From NCBI GenBank assembly GCA_001804815.1, contig MHBI01000099.1, positions 186,001 to 250,000 on the forward strand: a DNA stretch of 64,000 bases. Reading direction: 5' to 3'. The stretch comes from Lentisphaerae bacterium GWF2_50_93 (GTDB lineage: Bacteria; Verrucomicrobiota; Lentisphaeria; Victivallales; GWF2-50-93). The notes beneath the pieces were generated by a model. The model was not told the origin of the DNA and did no database searches. It saw nothing but the letters and a program-made list of their open reading frames with translations. This document shows, one piece after another, positions 8,878 through 20,159 of this stretch (position 1 is the first letter of the stretch; every line of letters begins with the position of its first letter). A program made the translations under genes and the position numbers.

Positions 8878-9735
8878 TTATGCGGAGAAGTTCTTCTTCC
8901 TGTATTCAACCGCCGTCATGCCTTTCAGCTTCTTGAAGACCCTGAAAAAATACGCAGGCGTGCTGAATCCTGAAAGTGAGGATATCTGGCTGGCGCTGAA
9001 AAATGTTTTTACCAGGAGCGCTGACGCATAGTCGATCTTCTTCCTGTTGAGCATGTCAGGCAGACTCTGCTTGAATTCCTCCCGCAATATCTGGGTCACC
9101 CTGGATTCGCTCAGGCATAGATGTTCCGCAAGCTTGCCAAGTGAAAAATTACCCTTGAATGAGTTGTTCAGGTATTTTTCTATCAGCTCCTTCTTTGATA
9201 CGCCCTGTTTCGTCACCCTGTATTCCTGATTGGCGATGCTCTCCATTTTGAATGTCAGCAGCTGTGATATTTTCATAAGGCGGTCTGAGTCTTCCAGCAA
9301 AAGTTCCGGCAGTGGGTTTATTTTCTGGGCCTTGCTGGCGCCGTTGCAGAATGTTTCACTGACGACCGTGCCTTTTGGAAATGATTTGTCTTTTCCGCTC
9401 CTGCCGAACGGGCCAATATAGAGAATCCCCGCCAGGTGTCCTTTCGCCTTCAATGGGATTACAAGCTCCAGTGCGCGTCCGTGGCAGTACTTGAAAAAGG
9501 GCAGGTATCCCTTCGAAGCGAGAGTCTGCTGCATCAGGACGTCGTCGAAATAGCGGCACTTGTTGGTTTGCTTCGCCTTTTCCTTTATGTAGGAGCAATA
9601 CGGATTGTTATGCAGATATTGGATCATGTTGACTACCGGATCCAGATCAGCAGTGTAGGCGTGCAGGGTGATCTGGCATTTGAAGGTCTTTTCGAACGCC
9701 TTGAGTATTTCCTTGAATTCTTCCAGTTTGTCCAT
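8878..9735 (-). CDS. AraC-family regulator with PocR sensory domain
   Basis: 285 residues. The N-terminal region (about 5-165) is a PocR-type ligand-binding domain: the CQITLHAY and NNPYCSYIKE segments, the conserved Cys in NKCRYFDD, and KYCHGRALELVIPLK followed by GILYIGPF. PocR domains sense small metabolites such as diols or sugar-derived compounds. Residues about 185-283 form the AraC helix-turn-helix pair (FSLGKLAEHLCLSESRVTQI; SASQISSLSGFSTPAYFFRV). It is transcribed away from the ABC importer, and operator E lies in the gap between the two divergent genes. Together with the AraC gene 1 kb upstream it is the most likely reader of the repeated operator. Function confident, ligand unknown. 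Confidence 0.88.
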   Translation of the reverse strand: MDKLEEFKEILKAFEKTFKCQITLHAYTADLDPVVNMIQYLHNNPYCSYIKEKAKQTNKCRYFDDVLMQQTLASKGYLPFFKYCHGRALELVIPLKAKGHLAGILYIGPFGRSGKDKSFPKGTVVSETFCNGASKAQKINPLPELLLEDSDRLMKISQLLTFKMESIANQEYRVTKQGVSKKELIEKYLNNSFKGNFSLGKLAEHLCLSESRVTQILREEFKQSLPDMLNRKKIDYASALLVKTFFSASQISSLSGFSTPAYFFRVFKKLKGMTAVEYRKKNFSA

Positions 9736-9985: not shown

Positions 9986-12571
9986 ATGATCAAATTTAAA
10001 GTTTTACTTTTATTGACGCTCCTTGCCCCGGTTGCCGCAGCCGCCGAAGAAACTGCTGGCAAGGCCGGCTCCATAGAACTCAAGGCCTGGGGTGTTCCTG
10101 AAGGCAACTATGGTGGCGTTGCCGGGGAGACAGGTGTAAAAGTCGCAAATGAGTTCCGGAAGCTCCATCCGAATGTAGATCTTCTCCCTGCAACCGGACT
10201 GACCCTTCCCGGGAACCGGGCGATGGACTCGGTACCGCTGATGCAGATAGCCGGTGACATCTCTCCGTCGGTGATATATGTTAACTTCCGGCAGTCGAGC
10301 ACCTACATAAGCCAGAAATTCCTGTATCCCCTTGACAAGTACCTTGAGAAGGCGTCCGGGACGGATGTGAAGGACGGGCATTTGATGAGCACCGGGCAGT
10401 ATTTGAAGGAGCTGCGGAGGGGGCCGTTGTATGCGGACGAGTTCGAGGAGCGTCTTCCTCCGCAATGCTGGGAAGTCATCCGCAGGGAATGCCCATATGG
10501 CGAAAGTTGTCCATATGTTAAGGAATGGAAGGCGACACCTGCCGCGAAGCATTCGCATGTCTGGTGCCTCCCGCAGAACCAGGCGGTGATGTCGCTCTTC
10601 TACCGAAGGGATCTGTTCGCCGAGGCAGGCCTGCCGGACCGCGTGCCCGGGGATATGGATGAATTCCTGGAATGGGCCCGGAAGATCCACAATCCCAAGG
10701 AGAATGTCTACGGGGTTAACATCCCCCTGGGCGAGACGGCGTGGTCGACACTGAGTTTTTTCTATTCATGCGGAGCACGCGCCGTCGAGCTGGACGCACA
10801 GGGGAACTGGTGCTGCGTCTTCAATTCACCGCAGGCGGTGGAGGCTTATTATTATGTGGCGAGGCTGTTCCTGGAGCCGTTCGAGAACAAGTTCGGGAAA
10901 TTCAAGGGAGTTGTGAATCTCGGCGAGATGAATGCCGCAATACGGTACGCCATGTATTTCACCTATATCGACCAGAAATCCTTCCAGCAGATAGATCCCA
11001 ATGTCATCAATTTCGGTCCGGTTCCGAAAGGGCCTACGGGCATGCGCGGCAGCGAATTCAACGCCCAGATGACCGGCATCTACGCGGGGTTCGACAAGAA
11101 CATAGTAATCCGGGATCTGTCCTGGGACTGGATGATGTTCTACGGAGGAAACGAGGCGAAGCTGATACAGGCTAAAATTTATGTTGAGAACGGTCTCGGG
11201 CGCTTTGTGCAGCCGAAACTTCTGGAGAAGGCCGGCTATCCGGAATTCATCAATAAGATACCGGCAGGCTGGATTGAGGCCTCCAAGGAGTCAGTGGAGA
11301 ACGGCATTCCGGAACCCTACGGGCGCAACTGCCAGCTGATATACCGCTACATGAGCCAGGCCATCGACCAGATCCGGACCGACAGCGAAGTCAACCGCTG
11401 CATCGAGGCGAAGGACGAGGCTGGAGCCAAGAAGAGAATAAGGGAAATCCTGGATGTCCGTGTCGGTATTGCAAACCAGAAGATGCTGGACATACTGCCT
11501 AAAGACGTGCTGAAGTTCAGGACGCGTGTCGCCGCGGCCGCGGCAATCTTCATCTTCACTGTTTTCGTATTGCTTCTGCTCAAGGTGGTGAAGACTTTTT
11601 CCGAGAACATGGTGCGCAGCGATGCTGACCGTGCGCGTGGGGACTGGCAGTTTGGCCGTAACAAGATCCCTTACCTGATCCTCCTTCCGGCTGTCCTCAG
11701 CATTGCGGTCTGGAGCTACTGGCCGCTCATGCGCGGCACGCTCATGGCCTTCCAGGACTACAATGTCCGCGGGTTCAGCACATGGACCGGATTTGAAAAT
11801 TTCGGTACAGTGCTCTTCAACTATGAATTCTGGTATGCGCTTTTCATATCCCTGAAATACACGGTGCTGTTCATGACCCTGGGCTTCATAGCGCCTATCA
11901 TCCTTGCCGTGCTGCTGGCCGAAGTCCCGAGGGGGAAGATCCTGTTCCGTACAATATATTATCTGCCGGCGATGCTTGCCGGCGTGGTGGTGATTTTCCT
12001 GTGGAAGGGATTCTATGGACAGCACGGGATGATCAACCAGGTGCTGAATTTCGGAGTGGTCGCCATCAATTACGTCTTCAGTACAAATCTGAGTGAATTC
12101 GCAGTCGAGTGGCTCAATTCACCGAGCTTCGCGCTTTTTTTCTGCCTGCTGCCCACCATCTGGGCAGGAATGGGACCCGGGTGCCTCATATATCTTGCGG
12201 CCCTGAAAGGCATTCCTGACGACCTTTACGAAGCGGCGGACATAGATGGCGCCAACTCGGCGCAGAAGGCCTGGTACATTGCCATCCCATCCATCAAGGC
12301 CCTGATCTCGATCAACTTCATCGGCGCGGCGATCGGCTGCATGCACAGCGGCAGCGCCTATGTCATGGCAATGACCGGTGGTGGACCATACACGCCCCAC
12401 GGTGAGACCGAAGTCATCGGACTGCACATTTTCTGGGAGGCGTTCGGTTTCCTCCGTTTTGGCGTCGCCACTGCAATGGCCTGGGTTCTGGGAGTCATGC
12501 TGATCGGATTCACGGTGCACCAGCTGCAGAAACTCAGCAAGATGGAATTCAAGGCCGCCGGAGGTAAGTAA
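9986..12571 (+). CDS. ABC importer: sugar-binding protein fused to MalF-type permease
   Basis: 861 residues uniting two proteins that are normally separate. Residues 1-19 are a signal peptide (LLLLTLLAPVAAAAE). Residues about 25-500 are an extracellular solute-binding protein of the sugar family (type 1): SIELKAWGVPEGN at the start, QAVMSLFYRRDLFAEAGLP and DEFLEWARKI in the middle. A membrane span follows (about 512-536), then the permease core (spans at about 561, 618, 655, 714, 774 and 827) with the ATPase-docking EAA loop DDLYEAADIDGANSAQKAWY (about 743-762). The binding domain is therefore tethered outside the membrane. The partner permease is the next gene. No ATPase gene is present in the window, so a shared MsmK-like ATPase elsewhere is probably used. 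Promoter: operator E. Confidence 0.87.
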   Translation: MIKFKVLLLLTLLAPVAAAAEETAGKAGSIELKAWGVPEGNYGGVAGETGVKVANEFRKLHPNVDLLPATGLTLPGNRAMDSVPLMQIAGDISPSVIYVNFRQSSTYISQKFLYPLDKYLEKASGTDVKDGHLMSTGQYLKELRRGPLYADEFEERLPPQCWEVIRRECPYGESCPYVKEWKATPAAKHSHVWCLPQNQAVMSLFYRRDLFAEAGLPDRVPGDMDEFLEWARKIHNPKENVYGVNIPLGETAWSTLSFFYSCGARAVELDAQGNWCCVFNSPQAVEAYYYVARLFLEPFENKFGKFKGVVNLGEMNAAIRYAMYFTYIDQKSFQQIDPNVINFGPVPKGPTGMRGSEFNAQMTGIYAGFDKNIVIRDLSWDWMMFYGGNEAKLIQAKIYVENGLGRFVQPKLLEKAGYPEFINKIPAGWIEASKESVENGIPEPYGRNCQLIYRYMSQAIDQIRTDSEVNRCIEAKDEAGAKKRIREILDVRVGIANQKMLDILPKDVLKFRTRVAAAAAIFIFTVFVLLLLKVVKTFSENMVRSDADRARGDWQFGRNKIPYLILLPAVLSIAVWSYWPLMRGTLMAFQDYNVRGFSTWTGFENFGTVLFNYEFWYALFISLKYTVLFMTLGFIAPIILAVLLAEVPRGKILFRTIYYLPAMLAGVVVIFLWKGFYGQHGMINQVLNFGVVAINYVFSTNLSEFAVEWLNSPSFALFFCLLPTIWAGMGPGCLIYLAALKGIPDDLYEAADIDGANSAQKAWYIAIPSIKALISINFIGAAIGCMHSGSAYVMAMTGGGPYTPHGETEVIGLHIFWEAFGFLRFGVATAMAWVLGVMLIGFTVHQLQKLSKMEFKAAGGK

Positions 12572-12612: not shown

Positions 12613-12689
12613 GTTTTAAGTCGCAAGTTTTAAGCAAGGGAAATTCTTGACTTAAAACCTAAAACTTGACACTTGAATCTTAAAACTTG
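12613..12689. repeat. Two interlocked inverted repeats between the permease genes
   Basis: GTTTTAAGTC (12613-12622) pairs perfectly with GACTTAAAAC (12649-12658). CAAGTTTTAAG (12624-12634) pairs perfectly with CTTAAAACTTG (12679-12689). The two stems cannot both form fully as simple hairpins because they interlock, so alternative structures or a pseudoknot are possible. The segment fills the 129-nt gap between two co-transcribed permease genes. Its role could be processing or differential expression, or it could simply be a mobile palindrome. Confidence 0.55.
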
Positions 12690-12700
12690 GAAAAGTTTAT

Positions 12701-14710
12701 ATGCCAATCATCAGTGAAATCGGAAAGAGAAGCGCTAGCGTCCGTATCCTCTATGCCTTGATATATCTGGTTCTGCTCATCGGATCGGTGACGATGATAT
12801 ATCCGCTGATGCTGATGCTGTCCGGTTCGGTCAAGAGCGATGCGGACTCCTGGTCGATCAAGCCTTATCCCGAGTTCTGGCTCGACGATCTCATTCTTTT
12901 CCAGAAATACACGGAATCCAAGTACAACGTGCAGAGCCAGGATGCGCAGCAGACCTGGTGCCGGCCTGTCATGAGCTGGCGGACGATTGAAAAACCGGAC
13001 GTGGTCCCTCCTGAACTGATCAGCGCCTACCGCAGCTGGCGCAGCGGTATCCCGGTAGACCAGAGGGTTGTAGGAAACTTGGCTGGAAGGGGGGTGCTGC
13101 CCAAGAATCTCCGTTCCTTCCGGAACTATATGTCCAACAAGTACCATGATGATCTGAATGCATACAACATGGCTGCAAACCAGCTCTGCTCGTCCTGGAG
13201 CAATGTCCGTCCTTCGATGGAGATAATTGGACGCTACCGCAACCGCAACCTCCCTGAGGATTTCAGACAGGTGCTGATCCAATGGCGCGCCACGATTCCC
13301 GCCGATGGCCTTATTGTAAGCGGGGCCCGTGGGTATTATGTCATGACCTACCTTTATGGGATCTACACGAGCCGCATCGAAGCCTACAACCAGGCTCATG
13401 GTACAAGTTATAAGAGCTACGGCGAGATCCCGCTGCCCTCCCGTGTCCCGGCTGAATCCGGAATTGCACGCAGGGACTGGACGGATTTTGTCCGCAACGA
13501 GATCCGGCTCAACTTCATTACGCTTGACAGCTCGCTGGAGGCGGCATTCCGGAAGTTCGTCAGAAGGCAGTACAGTTCCATTGAAGTATTCAACAAGGAG
13601 CATTCCACTTCCTTGTCAGGTTTTGATGCAATTCCATTTCCTTCCAGGATAGATGATGCGCCGTACCTCCGCCAGGACTTTGAAGGTTTCATCAAGTCCG
13701 AGGCCGACTGCCCGATAGAGGCCATCGGCATCTGCAGCGCCGACGAGCTGTTCCTTGAATTCCTGGCAGAGAAGAATGGCAGGATCCCGGAAGGATATCC
13801 CGGTCTCGGCGCAGTCGCCGCCGCCACCGACTGGGAGGACTGCATGGCGAACAAGAGCGCAGTGCGCTGGGAGTTCACCAAGCGCAACTATGTGCAGGTG
13901 CTGGACTACCTGACAATGCACGGCAACGGGCTGCTGAACACGTTCATATACTGTGCGCTGGCCATCCTCACCTCCCTGGTGGTCAATCCCCTGGCTGCAT
14001 ACGCCCTGAGCCGGTTCAGGCTTCCCGGAACATATAAGATTCTCCTCTTCTGCATGGCGACAATGGCTTTCCCCGGAGAGGTCACGATGATTCCGGGATT
14101 CCTCCTGCTCAAGCGCTTCCCTCTATGGCCGATCATCACCGGCGTCGTGGTCACGATAATCATTTTCCTGGTCCTCGAGAAATGCCTGCCGAAATGGAAG
14201 GAGAATCTGAGGGCCCTGCTTTCCCTGTCGGCAGGTCTTTTTGCGGGCGCGGTACTGGTCCCTTACCTTTCTCCGGAGAACGGCACCATAAGTCTCCTCA
14301 ACACTTTCGCAGCCCTGGTCCTTCCCGGAGTGGCGAACGGATATTTCATCTTCCTTCTGAAGGGGTTCTTCGACAGCATGCCCAAGGAGCTCTACGAAGC
14401 CGCCGACATTGACGGCGCCAGCGAGTGGACGAAGTTCTGGATGCTGACGATGAATCTCTCCAAACCTATTCTTGCAGTCATCGCCCTCGGCGCATTCACC
14501 CAGGCGTACTCGGCGTTCATGATGGCCCTCATCATAATCCCTGATCAGAAGATGTGGACCATCATGGTATGGATCTTCCAGTTGCAGGGACAGTCGCACC
14601 AGTCAGTGGTCTACGCCTCCCTTGTCATAGCCGCCATCCCCACGTTCATCATATTCGTCCTCTGCCAGAATGTGATAATGAAGGGGATTGTCGTGCCTAC
14701 GGAGAAATGA
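12701..14710 (+). CDS. ABC importer MalG-type permease with ~360-residue extracytoplasmic insertion
   Basis: 669 residues, more than twice the usual 280. The first span is at about 15-43 (ALIYLVLLIGSVTMIYPLML). A soluble stretch of about 360 residues follows, which by topology faces the periplasm. The remaining spans (from about 407) end with the EAA loop KELYEAADIDGASEWTKFW (about 563-582) and the MalG-like tail. The insertion holds two clear internal repeats: IEAYNQAHGTSYKSYGEIPL followed by PSRVP, and IEVFNKEHSTSLSGFDAIPF followed by PSRI; a weaker third copy lies near LNAYNMAANQ. The motif resembles the LNKAYGT..S..EI segment of GH42 beta-galactosidases (my recollection, not searched). 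It forms the importer with the preceding fusion protein. The ribosome-binding site before the ATG is weak (GGAAAAG). Confidence 0.85.
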   Translation: MPIISEIGKRSASVRILYALIYLVLLIGSVTMIYPLMLMLSGSVKSDADSWSIKPYPEFWLDDLILFQKYTESKYNVQSQDAQQTWCRPVMSWRTIEKPDVVPPELISAYRSWRSGIPVDQRVVGNLAGRGVLPKNLRSFRNYMSNKYHDDLNAYNMAANQLCSSWSNVRPSMEIIGRYRNRNLPEDFRQVLIQWRATIPADGLIVSGARGYYVMTYLYGIYTSRIEAYNQAHGTSYKSYGEIPLPSRVPAESGIARRDWTDFVRNEIRLNFITLDSSLEAAFRKFVRRQYSSIEVFNKEHSTSLSGFDAIPFPSRIDDAPYLRQDFEGFIKSEADCPIEAIGICSADELFLEFLAEKNGRIPEGYPGLGAVAAATDWEDCMANKSAVRWEFTKRNYVQVLDYLTMHGNGLLNTFIYCALAILTSLVVNPLAAYALSRFRLPGTYKILLFCMATMAFPGEVTMIPGFLLLKRFPLWPIITGVVVTIIIFLVLEKCLPKWKENLRALLSLSAGLFAGAVLVPYLSPENGTISLLNTFAALVLPGVANGYFIFLLKGFFDSMPKELYEAADIDGASEWTKFWMLTMNLSKPILAVIALGAFTQAYSAFMMALIIIPDQKMWTIMVWIFQLQGQSHQSVVYASLVIAAIPTFIIFVLCQNVIMKGIVVPTEK

Positions 14711-15754: not shown

Positions 15755-15770
15755 GGGAAAGGAATTGACT

Positions 15771-16520
15771 ATGGAAAATACGGTAAAAACGCCATCTGCG
15801 AGAATGATTGCTAATCCTTTCACGCTTATCGAACTGCTCGTCGTCATTGCGATCATCGCAATTCTTGCGGCGATGCTCCTGCCGGCGTTGAAGAAGGCCA
15901 AGGATACTGCAAACAGCATCCTGTGCACGTCAAATCAGCGTCAGCTGATGCAGACCATATCCTTCTATGAAACGGATCATAACGGGGCCATGCTGGCCTG
16001 CCATTATTATAATTATGAACCTATAATGGGCACTTATTATACGACATCTACCGCGGCCAGCGGCTTGACAAGCATGCTGAACTGGACCGGCTATCTGGGA
16101 TTTGATCCATATAAGGACGCAAACAACTTTGGCGTATGGAAGATGGCGGCAGGCATATTGAGTTGTCCATCGTACAACCATGCTGATTCCGGTTGTTCTC
16201 CAGGGGTTGATATCTTTTCTAATTTCGGACTCTCCGGAGTATATATCTTTGGCAACAGCAGTAATCCGGCAGATCCTGTCCAGCCATATATGACACAGAT
16301 CAAAAGACCTTCGCAAAAAGTCAGGACCGCGGACATAAAAGCCGGCAACAATAGGAATGGGCAGCATTGCTACTACTACAATGCCCTGATGCCGCGGCAT
16401 ACTCGCGGACTCAACGCAAGTTTCATTGATGGCCACTGCGAGTCCATCAAACATGCGGAAATCTCGCATTCAGGAGATTATACCATACTCGATGACAGGT
16501 TCAGGGATTTCAAGAATTGA
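15771..16520 (+). CDS. Type II secretion/type IV pilin-like protein (H-X9-DG family)
   Basis: 249 residues. A short basic leader is followed by the class III signal and first helix [20 protein letters not shown], then a periplasmic globular domain with conserved Cys residues (ILCTSNQ, ILSCPSY) and the closing motif [11 protein letters not shown]. This is the Lentisphaerota/Planctomycetota pseudopilin type. The residue before the Phe is Pro (ANPF), not the Gly that prepilin peptidase normally needs. I chose the ATG with AAGGAA 6 nt upstream; a TTG two codons earlier is unlikely. It follows the LamG gene by 16 nt. A frame-shifted pilin tail lies just downstream, so this gene's original 3' end may have been altered. 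Confidence 0.87.
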
Positions 16521-16575: not shown

Positions 16576-16607
16576 CTGAAAAATAATCATCCGAACACGG
16601 GGTGAAG

Positions 16608-18098
16608 ATGTACAGCAGAAGCAGTGTCAGCAAAACATACCGTGGCATAAGTCCAACGGACAAGGATGGGCGGAACGGCCTGAGGAACCCCGAACGGGGC
16701 CTTCGCTTCGAGATTCGCGTCGGTGAATTGCCAGGGAAGAACATTGATGAGTTCGCCTGCAGCAAGTGGCCATTCCCCGAGTACAAACAGGATGGTGTCA
16801 CAATCACTCAGGCCTACTGCTACCTCACCGGCTATTGCGAAGCCGGGATTGCCGATGATAAGCTCGCAGCGCTGCAGAAGAGTTTTGACCGTGCCAGGAA
16901 CTGCGGCGTCAAGTTCTTGCTCCGCTTCGCTTATGAATCCAATAGAAGCTCGCCGGGGCCGACCTCTGATCGTGTTCTTTCGCACATCGATCAGCTCCGC
17001 GAAATAATCCATAAAAATATTGACGTGATATATGTAATGCAGTGCGGATTCGTAGGACTATGGGGCGAATGGCACACCTCTGTCCACGGCCTGGAGTCCG
17101 ATTCCGGAAAGTCATCCGCGATACTCCGCAGTGCCCTCGAGATGCTGCCATCCGGACGCTTCACGCAGATGCGCCGCGCCAAATACAAGAAAAATAACCT
17201 TGAAGCCCTCAAGGCATTCGAGGAAATCAGCTCTTCAACCGCCTTCGGCGACAAGCCTGCAGCCAGGATTGGTTTCTTCAACGACGGCACTCTGGCAAAC
17301 AGCTGTGACGGCGGAACCTGGCCCGACGCCCCTTTCTCCACGCACGGCAATCCCGAGTTCGACTATGTATGCCGGGAGGCTCCCTACATGCCCGTTGACG
17401 GTGAGCTCTTCTGGACCGGACACGGAGAAAGATTCATCGCAGGACTTACCGCCGCGGAACGCTTCTGCCTCCATCACTACACCACCTTCAGCTATGTCCA
17501 CGGTTTCCATAAGCTGGACAAGGACAATGTCGAATGGGTAATTGATGACTGGCAGAAGCAGGAACTCCCAGAGAAAGTTCTCAAGGACAGGAGGCTTCCG
17601 GTATCCGACTCCTATTTCGATGCGGCGCCGCGCACGTCCTTCGAATATATCCGCGACCACCTCGGATACAGGATTGAAGTACAGTCCGCCGAATGGCCTC
17701 GAACTGCATGGCCTGACGACGAAATCAAATTCTCGCTGTCTCTGATCAACCGAGGCTTTTCAACATTCATCAACGTGCGCAGGCCTTTTTTTACGCTCAT
17801 CGGCACATCCGGTCAGATTATCGAGATTCCCACGGAAGCAGATTGCCGTTCATGGCAGCCGTACAAGCCGGGAGATCCGGAGCGAAAACCGCCCACTCAC
17901 AAAGTCAGCGCATCGATAAAGCTGCCGCAAGGCATAAGTCCCGGCGAATGGCAAGTCGGGTTCTGGCTGCCGGACGCCGCCCCGTCACTGCGTCTGGAGC
18001 CTGAATACGCAGTGCGCTGTGCAAACGGCGATATCCCCTGGCTGGAAATTGCCGGGTATGGATGCAACGTACTCGGAAACATATGCGTAGGGAGTTGA
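16608..18098 (+). CDS. DUF4832/DUF4874-type TIM-barrel protein, putative glycosidase
   Basis: 496 residues, no signal peptide. It opens with NGLRNPERGLRFEIRVGELP, the hallmark of the DUF4874 barrel, and continues with QAYCYLTGYCE, GVKFLLRFAYES and the conserved VMQCGFVGLWGEWHTS (about 145-160), whose Glu is a candidate catalytic acid. The DUF4832 part follows (about 180-350; LFWTGHGERFIAGLTAAERF, LHHYTTFSYVHGFH). A C-terminal beta-sandwich (about 365-490) holds GEWQVGFWLPDAA. The family is widespread near polysaccharide genes and thought to be a glycoside hydrolase relative; the reaction is not established. The start could also be the GTG two codons earlier. It lies in the LamG/pilin operon driven by operator B. 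Confidence 0.75.
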   Translation: MYSRSSVSKTYRGISPTDKDGRNGLRNPERGLRFEIRVGELPGKNIDEFACSKWPFPEYKQDGVTITQAYCYLTGYCEAGIADDKLAALQKSFDRARNCGVKFLLRFAYESNRSSPGPTSDRVLSHIDQLREIIHKNIDVIYVMQCGFVGLWGEWHTSVHGLESDSGKSSAILRSALEMLPSGRFTQMRRAKYKKNNLEALKAFEEISSSTAFGDKPAARIGFFNDGTLANSCDGGTWPDAPFSTHGNPEFDYVCREAPYMPVDGELFWTGHGERFIAGLTAAERFCLHHYTTFSYVHGFHKLDKDNVEWVIDDWQKQELPEKVLKDRRLPVSDSYFDAAPRTSFEYIRDHLGYRIEVQSAEWPRTAWPDDEIKFSLSLINRGFSTFINVRRPFFTLIGTSGQIIEIPTEADCRSWQPYKPGDPERKPPTHKVSASIKLPQGISPGEWQVGFWLPDAAPSLRLEPEYAVRCANGDIPWLEIAGYGCNVLGNICVGS

Positions 18099-19355: not shown

Positions 19356-20159
19356 ATGTGCAGTTCTTCCTTTTTCGGAATTCGCACTAGGAAAACTCCT
19401 GCGATATTCACATTGATTGAACTGCTCGTGGTGATTGCGATCATCGCAATTCTTGCGGCGATGCTTCTGCCGGCGTTGAGAAATGCAAAGGAAGCCGCCA
19501 ATAAAATAGTCTGCCTCAACAATCAGAAACAGCTTTCGGTCTATTCAGCTTTCTACGCCCAGACTTTCAACATTTATGTTCCGCATTATCATACGGTCGG
19601 TCCCGGGATATACCATAGGTATTGGTATGCCATGCTTGCAGAGGCGTCTGAATCAGGAATTGAATCGATGGACGGGCATTACGCACCTACCAGGGGGCTG
19701 CCGTCAAGCGATCAGCGTCGGGACCTTATTGCCACTTCCTTCCTGTGCCCCAAGGTAGCTGTCGGCAGGATATCATTCTTCTACCAGTATAATAACTACG
19801 CCGTTACGACAGCTCCCGTGAACATGAGCAACGCGACTGACCGCGGAACATATGTTCGCGACGTCAAGAGTCCGTCCCGGCGTCTGTTTCTGTTTGACAA
19901 TGGCGCTTATGGATTATCCGGGGGAGGTGCGTCCATACCGGGTTCTGGAATCGTTCCGGCTCGAATTGTCGCAGAGACGAATTTCTCGACATGGACTACA
20001 GCCCTGCAGCTTGATTTCCTGAAAGGACGGCATTCAAATGCAGTGAACGGACTTTTTTTCGATGGACATGCCGAAAGCATGCGGTCAGAAGATGTTTCCA
20101 ATCACCGTTATAATATGAACTCGTCAGACAAAAGCCGAATGTTCAACATCAATTTGTGA
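19356..20159 (+). CDS. Type II secretion/type IV pilin-like protein
   Basis: 267 residues. After a short leader comes [20 protein letters not shown], a first helix identical to that of the pilin at 15771. Conserved features follow: [20 protein letters not shown], and [12 protein letters not shown] near the C-terminus. The residue before the mature Phe is Ile (TPAIF), so the prepilin cleavage site lacks the standard Gly. GAGGTG lies 4 nt before the ATG. It is the first gene after operator C and is followed by the Big2/beta-helix gene (45-nt gap). Such pseudopilins are present in very large numbers in Lentisphaerota; a role in presenting or exporting glycan-active proteins is a hypothesis. Confidence 0.87.

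Follow-up and report, generated by a model that had tools for sequence, protein, structure and literature searches.

The CUT1 importer MalFGK2-MalE of E. coli is built on a MalF/MalG pair with the EAA motif and the MalG fold, and a periplasmic loop contacts its binding protein (PMC3150292). MalE, a free periplasmic protein, contacts both MalG P1 and MalF P2 (Daus et al. 2007, quoted in the same article); the large loop of the system is MalF P2, and MalG P1 is short. A binding domain covalently joined to the transmembrane domain is found in GlnPQ and OpuA (PMC8025302, PMC11065425), which belong to other families and take up amino acids and glycine betaine, respectively. The window analysed here, the whole stretch of 64,000 nucleotides from Lentisphaerae bacterium GWF2_50_93, encodes an importer with the same permease pair, motif and fold as the E. 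coli system and, putatively, with a comparable contact between periplasmic loop and binding protein.

The permease, its partner gene and their surroundings

The C-terminal half of the permease P0001 matches the NCBIfam models MalG (5.9e-17) and UgpE (1.7e-16), in both cases below the NCBIfam equivalog cutoffs, and P0001 matches Pfam BPD_transp_1 (PF00528) above cutoff, while the best PDB fold matches of the full AF2 model (pLDDT 84.1, pTM 0.77) are MalG chains (4ki0_G, E 4.9e-6). The EAA coupling motif is intact, its E-A-DGA columns being invariant in the family alignment, and the protein possesses the six TM helices of a MalG core plus two further ones. Alignment with four ordinary MalG-type proteins encoded in this genome is confined to the parts before residue ~50 and after residue ~392, so that ~340 extra residues lie between TM1 and TM2. 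By homology with MalG, this insertion corresponds to the P1 loop, which is periplasmic in that family, and since the positions of TM1 and TM2 leave the EAA helices on the cytoplasmic side (Table 1), the predicted topology does not place the loop in the cytoplasm. The initial annotation had described a periplasmic insertion of ~360 residues between the first two membrane spans, paired with a permease-fused binding protein, and in all these respects its reading agrees with the present one. It did not mention a second insertion, an extra transmembrane hairpin whose helices (residues 475-495 and 501-523 in the AF2 model) are separated by a K/R-rich turn and located before TM4; this hairpin occurs in only part of the loop family and is absent, by alignment, from L004, L006 and L036-L039 and from the ordinary MalGs of the genome. 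One of the four ordinary-looking MalGs, C118 (L010:1483-2592), has its P1 loop interrupted as well, by a separate and smaller insertion, and a 681-aa open frame of the same genome (G000:C40:30388-32088) holds two permease domains, as a fused permease pair. A minus-strand ORF of 307 aa (12680-13603) was treated as a shadow ORF of this gene.

Directly upstream lies the gene of P0002, in which a signal-peptide-like start precedes a solute-binding domain (PF01547, 2.6e-19) that is joined through a TM helix to a MalF/UgpA-type core. The genome encodes one OB_MalK-type ATPase, away from the importer, versus 27 permease-domain matches, and because this gene is single, an ATPase common to several importers is likely. 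By its core, its EAA motif, the adjacent MalF fusion and a MalK encoded elsewhere, the system is classed from sequence as a type I/CUT1-like ABC importer, with sugar transport as the predicted function; we infer both the substrate class and the pairing with a MalK-type ATPase. The divergent AraC-type gene (Table 1) is likely to encode a local regulator. Beside the importer are also found two pseudopilin-like proteins with an N-terminal methylation motif (window 15765-16520 and 19356-20159, the second assigned from sequence only) and, in the same gene cluster, a DUF4874-DUF4832 protein (window 16602-18098).

Table 1. Importer genes and associated features, with positions in the window
Feature	Positions	Strand	Basis
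MalG-type permease (P0001, 669 aa) bearing the periplasmic repeat loop	12701..14710	+	ORF call, Pfam/NCBIfam, predicted fold
TM1, residues 12-42; cytoplasmic N-terminus by MalG homology	12734..12826	+	AF2 helix, hydropathy, alignment to ordinary MalGs
Predicted periplasmic insertion in P1 loop, residues 46-400	12836..13900	+	Missing from same-genome ordinary MalGs, found in relatives
Repeat unit 1, residues 67-113	12899..13039	+	Profile searches
Repeat unit 2, residues 140-188	13118..13264	+	Profile searches
Repeat unit 3, residues 214-263 (start 214 or 217), holds YNQAHGTSYKSYGEIPLPSR	13340..13489	+	Profile searches
Repeat unit 4, residues 283-330, holds FNKEHSTSLSGFDAIPFPSR	13547..13690	+	Profile searches
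Degenerate repeat unit 5, residues ~347-400	13739..13900	+	Family alignment; model helix 347-359
TM2, residues 409-438, C-terminal letters AAYALSRF	13925..14014	+	Alignment, AF2, comparison with ordinary MalGs
Extra transmembrane hairpin (second insertion) in TM3-TM4 periplasmic loop, residues ~473-525	14117..14275	+	Alignment, AF2
EAA coupling helices, residues 562-586, ELYEAADIDGAS, ATPase-contacting	14384..14458	+	Sequence, alignment
MalF-type permease (P0002, 861 aa), solute-binding domain fused at its N-terminus	9986..12571	+	Pfam, NCBIfam
P0002 periplasmic solute-binding domain, residues ~21-511, PF01547	10046..11518	+	Pfam, hydropathy
P0002 TM helix that tethers the binding domain to the MalF core, residues 512-536	11519..11593	+	Hydropathy
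Divergent AraC-type regulator with PocR sensory domain	8878..9735	-	

Repeat units and the glycosidase element

Iterative profile searches reveal four tandem units in the P1 insertion, followed by a fifth that is degenerate in P0001 and intact in the relatives L004, L006, L037 and L038. Strict testing employed profiles trained on one unit position of the family, with 1000 shuffled loops as control: the unit-4 profile scored 46.3 bits on unit 3 of P0001 (shuffle maximum 5.9), and the unit-3 profile 25.5 bits on unit 4 (shuffle maximum 6.1) and 11.8 on unit 2, while unit 1 was marginal in this test (11.3 versus 10.0) and clear with the family model. The repeats therefore exceed chance, as the initial annotation had assumed, and its count of two, possibly three, was too low. 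Modelled alone, the P1 loop is predicted to be helical with confidence (pLDDT 89.8, pTM 0.87).

Homologous permeases with the insertion exist, and among the 90 distinct ones examined loop length ranges from ~300 to ~595 residues and the number of detected units from ~3 to 8, the length varying in steps of whole units: loops of ~303-312 residues have three detected units, those of 362-390 usually four or five, those of 525 six, and one of 595 eight. Successive detected units lie 65-79 residues apart in 234 of 278 spacings, and most of the other spacings are about double, so that in these one unit was missed by detection. When repeats were sought in P0002 and 16 partner proteins, none were found, except for one 2-bit stretch in the L029 partner.

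The likeness of these repeats to the LNxAWGT segment of GH42 beta-galactosidases, pointed out in the initial annotation as one to an LNKAYGT-type segment, is specific and holds at the level of a fragment. Pfam GH42 matches P0001 at 21.9 bits against a cutoff of 21, over profile positions 135-210 of 376, and the same stretch is matched several times in tandem within the loop; among 24 individual units, 11 yield GH42 matches at E <= 1 (best 0.0011). Against all PDB sequences, the unit profile retrieves exclusively glycosidase-type enzymes to E 0.19 (best 2.7e-5, 9ta3), including GH42 beta-galactosidases, beta-amylases, beta-1,2-glucosyltransferases, beta-agarases and one GH167 enzyme. This link depends on the profile, since phmmer searches of the PDB with the single sequence of units 3-4 returned nothing beyond weak matches. 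In the fold search the loop-alone model had no global PDB match (best E 0.6), and 38-39 of its residues superpose at 1.2-1.3 A on a glycosidase-type beta-1,2-glucosyltransferase (7vkx/7x87). Profile searches find the repeat in tandem in permeases and in single copy in glycosidase-type enzymes, where by sequence it begins ~20 residues past the acid/base Glu; the six non-permease matches examined in the window's genome each hold one copy, four of them scoring above the GH42 cutoff, one just below it and one lacking any Pfam match. A TIM barrel with acid/base and nucleophile Glu was not found in the P1 loop, whose model is almost all-helical and without a barrel match, nor does P0001 have a Pfam CBM match. 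The units may either derive from a GH42-type element or converge on it, over a shared stretch of ~40 residues.

Distribution, co-divergence and the proposed role of the loop

Close relatives of the permease occur in Lentisphaerae, other Verrucomicrobiota, Kiritimatiellae and Planctomycetota (Phycisphaerales). At E <= 1e-5 the loop profile matches 75 of the 241 sampled genomes of the phylum and 55 of 132 genera, the true genome count being somewhat below 75 because the lowest-scoring matches fall in longer proteins (~900-1650 aa), probably glycosidases; the loop arrangement is widespread in Verrucomicrobiota and is also present in Planctomycetota. The window's own genome holds four loop-bearing permeases alongside ordinary MalGs. 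Of the 71 systems with a visible upstream MalF, 51 encode this protein and the binding domain in one ORF; most of the others run off the end of the locus DNA, and L123, L126 and L133 are unclassed. Three loci (L092, L093 and L113) have loops of ~300 residues with three detected units and no MalF gene in the flank examined, the upstream gene of the first two encoding an unrelated ~705-aa protein. In L039 (Phycisphaerae), a MalG of 445 aa as read (L039:8-1342, an ORF at the locus edge) has no detectable units and adjoins a 1495-aa binding-domain/MalF protein (L039:1496-5980) in reversed gene order. L025 (DAOVKO010000009.1) comes from a MAG labelled ‘Actinomycetes bacterium’ and resembles the Planctomycetota members; it is possibly a mislabelled bin.

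In 37 complete systems, with the membrane cores controlled for, the divergence of the loop follows that of the binding domain (partial rank r 0.48, 0 of 2000 permutations), the corresponding values being 0.28 with the loop's own membrane core and 0.12 with the MalF core, while the two membrane cores track each other at 0.51. Mean p-distances are 0.75 for the loop and 0.64 for the binding domain, versus 0.36-0.48 for the cores. That the loop tracks the binding domain fits a contact between the two, by docking or via a shared ligand.

We propose that the P1 loop docks the MalF-fused binding domain through a putative interface, a reading that we place midway between doubt and belief. The enlarged MalG P1 would form a rigid array of about five helical units of ~70 residues in the periplasm, resembling, by descent or convergence, the helix-turn element located past the acid/base Glu (strand beta4) of GH42-type glycosidases. 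Such an array would most likely serve the binding domain, tethered to MalF by its TM helix, as a docking platform or clamp, an enlarged successor to the contact that MalE receives from MalG-P1 (and MalF-P2) in the E. coli system, and would hold the loaded binding domain above the translocation pore, with ATP hydrolysis presumably supplied by a MalK-type ATPase serving several importers. Docking is suggested by the location of the loop in P1, by analogy the region that contacts MalE in E. coli, by the frequent fusion of the binding domain, with which the loop co-diverges most, and by the confident helical model and the whole-unit length changes. Against it, a ligand contacted by both parts, or rapid evolution of both, could equally give rise to the co-divergence; a variation from three to eight units is not obviously needed to dock one binding domain, and for a domain that is already tethered an extra dock is not strictly required. 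A wider proposal, offered tentatively and with more reserve than the docking itself, is that an element flanking a glycosidase active site underwent tandem duplication in MalG P1 to give a length-adjustable periplasmic arm, defining a distinct CUT1 class of Verrucomicrobiota and Planctomycetota, in which the arm would clamp the tethered binding domain or hand chains to it, with a reach set by unit number.

The co-divergence could likewise reflect a common ligand if, as the initial annotation suggested, the loop itself contacted oligosaccharides and guided long chains from the periplasm to the binding domain and pore, its units being carbohydrate-binding relatives of the GH42 element. The only convincing PDB relatives of the unit are indeed glycan-acting enzymes, including the glucosyltransferase on which it superposes locally, but we regard this role, though a serious rival to docking, as unlikely in view of the rapid divergence of the loop and of the fate of the residues concerned. 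In BiBga42A, Trp-200 and Phe-221 lie at helix tips and project into the active site of the adjoining subunit, which W200 serves (PMC10688820), and W200 is the second Trp of AWGTAFW (position checked on the sequence). In the permease units, the LNxAWGTxFW element keeps its scaffold (N, GT, aromatic) and has mostly lost both Trp residues, the first being retained in 15% and the W200-equivalent position being essentially never Trp in 401 units. The specific GH42 sugar contact is therefore not inherited, and the carbohydrate-contacting module at which the likeness hinted in the initial annotation does not follow from it. No catalytic or other barrel part of GH42 is matched. Other sugar contacts by the units are possible. 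A single aromatic pair of the unit is well kept, at model positions 46 and 49 (DWxxF).

The step-wise change in unit number, from ~3 to 8, is also what a spacer would display, and the reach of W200 and F221 into an adjacent subunit indicates that the GH42 element can work between proteins (PMC10688820). The loop might then be an envelope scaffold whose binding target is peptidoglycan, the outer membrane or an enzyme of the periplasm such as a glycosidase, placing the importer beside a glycan-releasing complex at a distance set by unit number. A few loci are flanked by sugar-isomerase-like, Gfo/Idh/MocA and GH20 genes; however, no conserved enzyme neighbour was found beside the permeases, their flanking genes being mixed, with at most 4 of 70 sharing a family, and the tracking of the binding domain argues for a partner within the importer, which makes a scaffold of this kind, likewise a serious rival, slightly less likely still. 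Finally, the idea that the insertion is the remnant of a glycosidase domain, devoid of any present role in the permease, is hardly credible despite the GH42 match above the gathering score, being contradicted by the tandem repetition of a single GH42 stretch lacking barrel and catalytic motif, by the maintenance of the loop in many genera and by its confidently predicted compact fold.

Comparison with known importers and enzymes

A literature search conducted mostly outside subscription journals found neither a MalG repeat loop nor fused CUT1 binding proteins in these phyla. The importer kind itself (type I/CUT1) is known; the combination of a repeat arm in MalG-P1 with a binding domain fused to MalF was not found described in the literature covered. 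The series of ~3 to 8 units offers natural material for testing how a periplasmic loop controls docking and substrate size. Recognition of the arm should also aid the annotation of glycan uptake in phyla whose importers are poorly characterised, and calls for caution, as GH42 matches on such permeases do not denote enzymes.

With the GH42, GH14, GH50 and GH167 enzymes the permeases share a helix-turn-helix element of ~38-60 residues, located in the former past the acid/base Glu; GH42-type enzymes carry one copy within a TIM barrel, whereas the permeases have ~3-8 tandem copies and neither barrel, catalytic Glu nor sugar-contacting Trp. The permeases of GlnPQ and OpuA are not known to have an enlarged repeat loop. 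In contrast to the E. coli importer, the window's importer has its binding domain fused to MalF, and its large loop is a repeat-built MalG P1: where model importers have a small MalG-P1, this class has swapped in a modular arm that looks like part of a glycosidase, and its binding protein is joined to the partner permease.
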